In this document: positions 50,573-64,000 of the stretch, in pieces
Numbering within the stretch: the stretch's first letter is position 1
Layout: each line of letters starts with the position of its first letter
Assembly: GCF_001623405.1 (NCBI RefSeq)
Contig: NZ_LUHG01000039.1
Coordinates: 124,001-188,000 of the forward strand
DNA: 64,000 nt
Source of the DNA: Hydrotalea flava
GTDB lineage: Bacteria; Bacteroidota; Bacteroidia; Chitinophagales; Chitinophagaceae
Direction of reading: 5' to 3'
Position numbers and translations under genes: made by a program
The notes under the pieces: generated by a model
Seen by the model: the letters and a program-made list of their open reading frames with translations, nothing else
The model's database searches: none
Told to the model about the DNA's origin: nothing

Positions 50573-51109
50573 ATGATTTTATCGGATACACGAATTTTGG
50601 AAGAGATGGAAAAAGGTACTATCAAAATTGTACCCTTCCAACAAGACTGTTTAGGGAGTAATAGTTATGATGTGCATCTGGGCAGTACTTTAGCCACATA
50701 TAAAGACCATATTTTAGATGCAAAACTACACAACACAATAGAGTATTTTGAAATACCCGATGAAGGCTTTGTATTGTATCCGCATATATTTTATTTGGGT
50801 GTTACTGCTGAATATACCGAAACCCATGCTCATGTGCCATTTTTGGAAGGCAAATCATCCACCGGACGGCTTGGTATAGATATACATGCCACTGCAGGTA
50901 AAGGAGATGTTGGATTTTGTGGCAACTGGACACTTGAAATTTCAGTAAAACAACCGGTTAAAATATATAAGGGAATGCCTATTGGTCAATTAATATATTT
51001 TCCTGTTGAAGGTGATATTGCTGTGAAATACAACCAAAAATTAAATGCAAAATACAGCCACCAACCCAATAAGCCCATTGAAAGTATGATGTGGAAAAAC
51101 AGTTTTTAG
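50573..51109 (+). CDS. dcd: dCTP deaminase
   Basis: Converts dCTP to dUTP for thymidylate synthesis. The trimeric dUTPase-like fold shows EGKSSTGRLGIDIHATAG (substrate loop, near residue 95) and the catalytic Glu in NWTLEISVKQP; the N-terminal MILSDTRILEEMEKG is typical. 178 residues, normal length. A bifunctional dCTP deaminase/dUTPase cannot be excluded from motifs alone. The stop overlaps that of the tspO remnant by 3-4 bases. Confidence 0.92.
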   Translation: MILSDTRILEEMEKGTIKIVPFQQDCLGSNSYDVHLGSTLATYKDHILDAKLHNTIEYFEIPDEGFVLYPHIFYLGVTAEYTETHAHVPFLEGKSSTGRLGIDIHATAGKGDVGFCGNWTLEISVKQPVKIYKGMPIGQLIYFPVEGDIAVKYNQKLNAKYSHQPNKPIESMMWKNSF

Positions 51110-51579
51110 TTGAACATATAAATAGCTCCGTTCAATATGGCTGCAAAACTTACCCAGGCAATATATGGTATTCATAACCACGCTGCCCACTTTTGAACTG
51201 AAGCGCTATAAATGATGGTCAGTAAAATAAACAACCGCATCAATAGTATTTCTGCAAACGCCCATCCGGTTTTATGCAAATAAAAAAATATAAATGACCA
51301 GACAATATTCAGCAAGAATTGTATAACAAACAATAATATAGCCTTTTGCTTTTTAGGTGAAGCAGCACTATTCCAAAGCAAATAAAAAGAAACGCCCATA
51401 GAGGCATATAAAAATGTCCACACCGGAGCAAACAAACCATTGGGCAGATTAATAAAGGGTTTATTCAAATGGGCATACCAATTTGCAATTTGTGGTGCAG
51501 TAACAATGCCACCTGCTGCCCCTAAAACCATAATAGTAATGAGTGCAACAATGAATTTTAAAGCATTAAATTTTTTTAT
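51106..51579 (-). pseudogene. tspO: TspO/MBR-family protein, interrupted by TGA and lacking an ATG
   Basis: Five-helix tryptophan-rich sensory/transport protein. The open part (51172-51531, ATG to TGA) starts within helix 1 and contains NWYAHLNKPFINLPNGLFAPVWTFLY, cut here as two family stretches NWYAHLNKP and FAPVWTFLYASMG. After the TGA at 51172-51174 the frame continues IPYIAWVSFAAILNGAIYM to TAA at 51106, exactly the conserved fifth helix (PYLAWVSFA). Upstream the frame is open to ATA 51579 (ATA AAA AAA TTT), where an ATG would be expected. Restored length 157 residues, the family norm. Either a recent pseudogene, read-through, or sequence errors. Confidence 0.78.
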
Positions 51580-63260: not shown

Positions 63261-63421
63261 TATTATTTTATAAAATAAAAATATATAAGTATAGGATTTG
63301 TTTAAAAACCACATGTAAGAAGGTGATTGCAGAATTGCATGATAAAGGTAGTAAAAACGATTATGGAAGAAATGATAAAAATCAGTTAATTAGAACTTTG
63401 TTATTTTACTCTGGGATCAAT

Positions 63422-64000
63422 TCATGCATACAAAATATCGGAGAGTATATTCATTACAATAAAAAAGCAAGCTGTTAACAAAACACTGCCCATAACTACC
63501 GGAAAATCAAGTTGTTCCAGAGCATCTACCGTAACTTTTCCAATCCCATTCCAACCAAAAATATATTCCACAAAAAATGCGCCTGCCAGTAATTCCGCAA
63601 ACCAACCGGTTATGGCAGTAATAATCGGATTCAATGCATTTTTTAACGCATGCACAAATAATACTTTAGTACGAGTTAATCCTTTGGCATATGCTGTTCG
63701 AATATAATCCTGTTGCAACTCATTCAATAAACTACTTCTGGTTAATTGGGTAAAAATGGCAAGCGGTCGTATACCCAAAGTAATGGCCGGAAGAATTAAG
63801 TTTTTCAAGTCTAGTTGCTTTCCTTTAAAGGGATCAATATAATATAAACTACCCAGCATGTGTAGACCGGTATATTGAGACAATAAAAAACCAAACAGAT
63901 AAGCTATTACAATTCCTGTAAAAAAAGAAGGAACAGAAATTCCCAATATGCTGGTAAATACAGTGGTTGTATCTATCCAGCTTCCTTTCTTCACAGCAGC
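63422..64000 (-). CDS. dppB: Dipeptide/oligopeptide ABC transporter permease, C-terminal part (window edge)
   Basis: DppB/OppB-type inner-membrane permease, cut at the right edge; the frame is open through 64000 (AAVKKGSWIDT). Visible: GISVPSFFTGIVIAYLFGF, the EAA-type cytosolic loop (IRTAYAKGLTRTKVLFVHAL), and helices ending DILYA. A TGA at 63422-63424 stops the frame, but IDPRVK and then TAA (63401-63403) follow directly in frame. IDPRV is the conserved C-terminus of this family, so the TGA looks like a nonsense change that removes seven residues. GTG 63994 is only an internal Val. ATPase and binding-protein genes are not in view. Confidence 0.87.
   Translation of the reverse strand, partial: AAVKKGSWIDTTTVFTSILGISVPSFFTGIVIAYLFGFLLSQYTGLHMLGSLYYIDPFKGKQLDLKNLILPAITLGIRPLAIFTQLTRSSLLNELQQDYIRTAYAKGLTRTKVLFVHALKNALNPIITAITGWFAELLAGAFFVEYIFGWNGIGKVTVDALEQLDFPVVMGSVLLTACFFIVMNILSDILYA

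Follow-up and report, generated by a model that had tools for sequence, protein, structure and literature searches.

The 3' end of a dppB-type ABC permease gene raises the question of how a conserved C-terminal tail came to lie, in frame and intact, behind a stop codon. Within the window (the whole stretch of 64,000 nucleotides analysed here), the 3' part of the gene (codons 148-339) occupies positions 63425..64000 of the minus strand. It is followed on the same strand by an in-frame TGA at 63422..63424 (codon 340, next base A) and by a tail, IDPRVK and then TAA, at 63401..63421. Read on the minus strand, positions 63401-63445 give LSDILYA-TGA-IDPRVK-TAA, which confirms the DILYA-TGA-IDPRVK-TAA of the preliminary description. 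The start of the gene lies outside the window, 441 bases past its edge at C8:188441 of the same genome (G000), and the full ORF runs from there to the TGA at C8:187422-187424, with 339 codons ahead of the TGA. Counting the TGA and the six codons behind it, the gene has 346 codon positions, 7 of which are cut off, the same seven residues whose loss had been claimed. The gene is otherwise intact and carries no other lesion. Its product contains a BPD_transp_1 domain (PF00528, E 1.7e-32 on the part in the window and 132.6 bits in the genome search), and the closest solved chain, 8z1v_A (E 1.3e-38), is named DppB, in agreement with the dppB-like identity first proposed. A structure model of a 199-residue read-through fragment, built on an alignment with 38 of the 80 genome_contigs loci described below, was too weak for use (mean pLDDT 65, pTM 0.44); in this weak model, the last helix reaches residue 194 and coil lies behind it.

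We compared the gene with 109 related dppB loci, 29 from related genomes (where the search kept 30 loci, our own included) and 80 from genome_contigs, the latter being the best 80 of 556. Only best matches were taken, and a few species were possibly counted in both sets. All 109 related loci examined have a sense codon where our gene has the TGA, and the next residues are DPR in 108 of them and NPR in one, as expected from the conserved IDPRV(K/R) ending and the premature TGA of the preliminary description. Because the frame runs on into D-P-R or N-P-R in every one of these loci, the tail behind the stop is not a product of chance, as had also been argued, and the stop is the derived state. 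None of the 109 relatives examined ends at this TGA, a shared end being the observation that the preliminary description had named as contrary to its view. The position itself is variable (Val in 33 relatives, Ile in 32, Trp in 16, Leu in 13, Met and Ala in 5 each, Phe in 3, Tyr and Arg in 1 each). It is Tyr in the congener G002 and Cys in none of the 109. Counted from the TGA codon onward, the proteins of relatives close with 8-11 residues and ours would close with 7 even with readthrough. In the full list of matches from related genomes, only our own genome (TGA) and the congener G001 (TAG) had a stop inside the dppB match. The D-P-R tail is present in the DNA but lies behind the TGA, hence outside the translated frame, and we read its misplacement, going by sequence, as damage to a member of the DppB/OppB type and not as the mark of a separate family.

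The partner permease is likewise truncated. A search of our own genome with PF12911 (OppC_N) returned nothing, and dppC was found instead through PF00528, at C6:48399-49472. It reads NLLGNG-TGA-SDILNIPGSFKTGN-TGA, with an in-frame TGA 14 codons ahead of the end and a conserved 14-residue tail behind. In G002, dppC reads on across the site of this TGA (NLLGNGLSDILNVPGSVRIGN), and the site is Leu in the two congeners in which it could be read. The third component, a fused DppD/F-like ATPase gene at C31:73239-74993, has an intact frame of 585 aa with two ABC_tran stretches and oligo_HPY. The transporter genes of G000 are thus spread over three contigs, with dppB on C8, dppC on C6 and the fused ATPase on C31, and both permease lesions fall within the last 2-4% of the genes. 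A plasmid search of the dppB region gave no match.

The state of the transporter differs among the congeners (G001, G002 and G003, the last 82% complete): it is intact in G002, truncated at its ends in G000 and shattered in G001, and it was not found in the incomplete genome of G003. In G001, dppB is in pieces that sit at contig ends (C126 and C198): it lacks about 98 residues, its reading frame changes three times, and a TAA and a TAG interrupt it in frame. The dppC gene of G001 (C13) carries one TAG and two TAA within a single matched stretch, and no ATPase match was found. In G003, the searches for dppB, PF00528 and the ATPase all came back without a match. Across a wider set, a dppB match at E 1e-20 was absent from 23 of 99 genomes. 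Given the TGA in dppC, the wreckage in G001 and the lack of any sighting of the three genes in G003, the Dpp-type transporter seems, on these sequences, to be dispensable in the genus.

Whether the TGA acts as a stop depends on how the codon is read in this organism, and several lines of evidence bear on this. The RF2 gene is present above the family cut-off, and its product is 94% identical to that of the congener over 309 residues. The SPF and GGQ motif regions are identical in the two proteins. The 5' region of the gene keeps CTT-TGA, the classical frameshift site of RF2 genes. TGA is also a frequent terminator: in the 1.19 Mb of G000 examined, 103 of 993 ORFs end with it, vs 62 of 1027 in G002; terminal TGA is about 1.7 times commoner in G000. 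The paired G000 genes include 62 that end in TGA. For 49 of these, the end lies no more than 2 residues from that of the congener's gene, and 9, including dppB, dppC and TspO, terminate 3 or more residues before it; the congener's gene ends in TAA or TAG in 43 of the 62 pairs. No tRNA-Sec was found above cut-off, and the 10 sub-threshold matches were ordinary tRNAs. We read the anticodon of each of the 38 tRNA matches above cut-off and found no UCA among them; the anticodon of tRNA-Trp is CCA, and a 39th match, below cut-off, was not called a tRNA by ARAGORN. With RF2 present, TGA a frequent terminator and neither tRNA-Sec nor a tRNA with a UCA anticodon above cut-off, this organism reads UGA as a stop.

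This evidence leaves next to no room for programmed recoding, whether by selenocysteine at UGA or by reassignment of UGA in the lineage, even though a lone TGA in frame, with a conserved tail behind it, superficially looks like its signature. Selenocysteine is rejected on the tRNA search, with nothing above cut-off, and the lack of Cys at the dppB position in the relatives examined points the same way. A change of code that made TGA Trp or another residue is rejected on RF2 with its own TGA frameshift site, on the many TGA terminators, on the 0 of 38 UCA anticodons among tRNA matches above cut-off and on like lesions made of TAA and TAG. Nor do the three TGAs in dppB, dppC and TspO share a meaning as Trp, the residue at the TspO site being Leu in most relatives and never Trp, and that at the dppC site being Leu in two congeners.

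The TspO gene is among the cases of a scan for interrupted genes, which took, for each G002 gene, only its top tblastn hit and was enlarged from 305 to 606 and then to 709 orthologue-like genes. The script set aside stops that fell among the first 30 codons of the query, that had a flank identity <45% or that lay in matches with identity <50%. We dropped by eye, on the G000 side, one ORF that was an antisense shadow (C8:108457-110079), two cases with a 5' end extended too far (C104:39056 and 67709) and three stops 1-4 codons ahead of the end; on the G002 side, four near-end stops (one of which lay in a tRNA region) and three cases with an over-extended 5' end, which left one gene (C3:39368-39730); and, among frameshift-like rows, C31:178481 in G000 with its G002 counterpart (a tRNA region). 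Internal nonsense codons were found in 7 of 709 genes in G000 vs 1 of 704 in G002, and frameshift-like breaks in 5 vs 2, with the tRNA-region artefact removed on each side. One TGA each interrupts dppB, dppC and TspO. The remaining G000 nonsense genes are a 99-codon gene with a TAA (C8:25895-26191), a gene with a TAG (C31:241974-242648), a gene labelled sensor-kinase-like from a look at its sequence, with two TAA (C31:15435-15989), and a gene labelled helicase-like by eye, with a TGA and a frameshift (C31:101463-103224). Besides these seven, four further genes have frameshift-like breaks. As to individual genes, the one at C31:241974-242648 is 92% identical to the congener's, and its TAG stands 25 codons ahead of the end, is TGG in the congener and has 20 identical residues on either side. 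The helicase-like gene is an open frame of 826 codons in G002, and a frameshift at C8:84042-86263, adjoining prfB, splits a gene whose G002 counterpart encodes 749 aa.

The TspO/MBR gene (51106..51576, minus strand; PF03073, E 7.8e-42 when read through) stands outside the transporter, 12 kb from dppB. Its in-frame TGA, at 51172-51174, is 21 codons ahead of the usual end and lies within a conserved C-terminal block. The position is a sense codon in all 24 relatives with an aligned residue (Leu in 17 of the 24, never Trp), the match of a 25th relative stopping short of it. In addition, an in-frame ATG of the congener corresponds to ATA here, so that the gene may carry two lesions.

Since all three kinds of stop codon (TAA, TAG and TGA) occur among the broken genes of G000, the scan argues against a TGA-specific code. 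A broad excess of TGA, which we suspected after finding the dppC lesion, was no longer clear once the enlarged scan had yielded TAA and TAG cases. Among the genes with a single nonsense lesion, 3 of 5 have TGA vs 23% expected, the approximate TGA share of single-step routes to a stop (a chance of about 0.08, calculated by hand), an excess that is mild and not convincing. The base after the TGA is A in all four in-frame TGAs of interrupted genes, a context expected by chance at about 0.012 (also by hand, with A as the first base in 32.8% of codons) and noticed after the fact.

These last two observations would fit a leaky UGA, at which ordinary tRNA-Trp would insert a residue at low frequency, some full-length DppB (and DppC and TspO) would be made and the tails would be kept under selection. 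An A on the 3' side favours UGA readthrough, so the shared context speaks for this reading a little, as do the TGA share of the single-lesion genes and the conservation of the tails behind the TGAs of dppB, dppC and TspO. Moreover, the available part of Belinky et al. (PMC7918605) describes in-frame stops as widespread in bacterial genes, with dN/dS <1, and terms TGA leaky. Against this, the conserved tails are equally expected from young mutations, RF2 matches the congener's without a difference in the two motif regions, TAA and TAG interrupt G000 genes too, TGA is a common true stop at a frequency above that of the congener, and the TspO position is predominantly Leu and never Trp among the aligned relatives. 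We consider a leaky UGA unlikely. An elaboration of it, in which UGA-A is tolerated near the 3' ends of membrane-protein genes (dppB, dppC and tspO) and a small, condition-dependent share of the permease would receive its tail, as a control of dose or assembly by readthrough, strikes us as highly improbable. A consensus base error or a minority strain variant, with a sense codon in most cells, is similarly doubtful. The G000 assembly is a draft in 116 contigs and contains more interrupted genes of both kinds than G002, as errors would produce, but its completeness is 99.99 and its contamination 0.08. In addition, the loss of the same transporter in a congener is real, and two of the five single-nonsense genes encode the two permease subunits of that transporter, a pairing that random errors would not favour.

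We regard as probable, instead, that the TGA arose by a young nonsense mutation and is read as a normal stop, and that the Dpp-type importer is under weakened selection and beginning to decay. A recent substitution would have made the TGA of dppB codon 340, at which RF2 would terminate to release a DppB of 339 residues without the last seven. The part lost would be a short tail past the last transmembrane helix, a position suggested by the family, and dppC would have gained its TGA independently, 14 codons from the end. Under this model, selection on the peptide importer would have weakened in the genus, with decay starting in G000 and the system already wrecked in G001. We infer that the dppB mutation is fixed in living cells and that its direction is decay and not harmless trimming. 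Because dppC has a matching lesion and the system of a congener is wrecked, lost or weakened DppB function appears likelier than a harmless trim, and the truncated DppB/DppC pair presumably works poorly or not at all.

Some of the evidence counts against decay. Among G000 vs G002 pairs, dppB is not fast-evolving (dN percentile 65, compared with 80 for dppC and 93 for the ATPase) and has no further lesion, and the 585-aa frame of the ATPase is intact. The confinement of both lesions to the extreme 3' ends is as expected if the cell still used the permease genes and tolerated loss only at their ends, and the contig-end position of the G001 dppB pieces also weighs against the decay reading. In favour of decay, the fused ATPases of G000 and G002 share only 62% identity, where the median over 621 reciprocal best pairs is 83%. 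Yet the identity of dppB to outgroups (108 loci) averages 65.5% for G000 vs 63.5% for G002, and the G000 ATPase is no more divergent from outgroups than that of G002 in 5 of 6 comparisons. Divergence is thus not concentrated in G000, which counts against a faster decay of the dppB and ATPase sequences in this genome. The ratio pN/pS is 0.23 behind the three TGAs of dppB, dppC and TspO (41 codons) and 0.24 ahead of them (830 codons). Such equal constraint implies either stops that are young compared with the divergence from G002 or tails that are still used, two cases that the test cannot separate; the constraint on the tails would also be expected if they were still translated.

The DppB of E. 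coli DppABCDF is a BPD_transp_1 permease, as is the dppB product here. The solved DppB chain 8z1v_A has 339 residues, aligns up to LY at residue 328 and has 11 more where our gene has its tail, whereas the product here ends after LYA. This chain and the E. coli structure considered next presumably belong together. According to the available part of the report on that complex, the five dpp genes of E. coli form one operon, and the complex was resolved except for 30 residues of the DppB periplasmic region (PMC12136057). The latter implies, within the same limits, an ordered DppB tail in E. coli. In contrast to the single dpp operon, dppB, dppC and the fused ATPase of G000 lie on three contigs.

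The idea of incipient pseudogenes that arise as a genus loses a transporter is a general one. The graded states of the congeners resemble it, but both permease lesions of G000 are confined to the last codons. This kind of event is already known, since the available part of the study by Belinky et al. (2021; PMC7918605) describes in-frame stops in constrained bacterial genes as widespread and as short-lived in evolutionary terms. Our case is like those described there in having a nonsense codon with a downstream part that is still constrained. It differs in that their stops, as given in that part, occur in orthologues of at least two species, whereas the dppB stop was found in 1 of the 110 loci examined. 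If readthrough did maintain the tails, the three genes would offer a natural case of UGA leakiness in Bacteroidota. Recoding need not be invoked for a tail that is intact behind a stop, because young nonsense mutations leave exactly such tails. With early decay as the probable reading, the locus illustrates, on a small scale and cleanly, a way in which a transporter of several parts may be lost.
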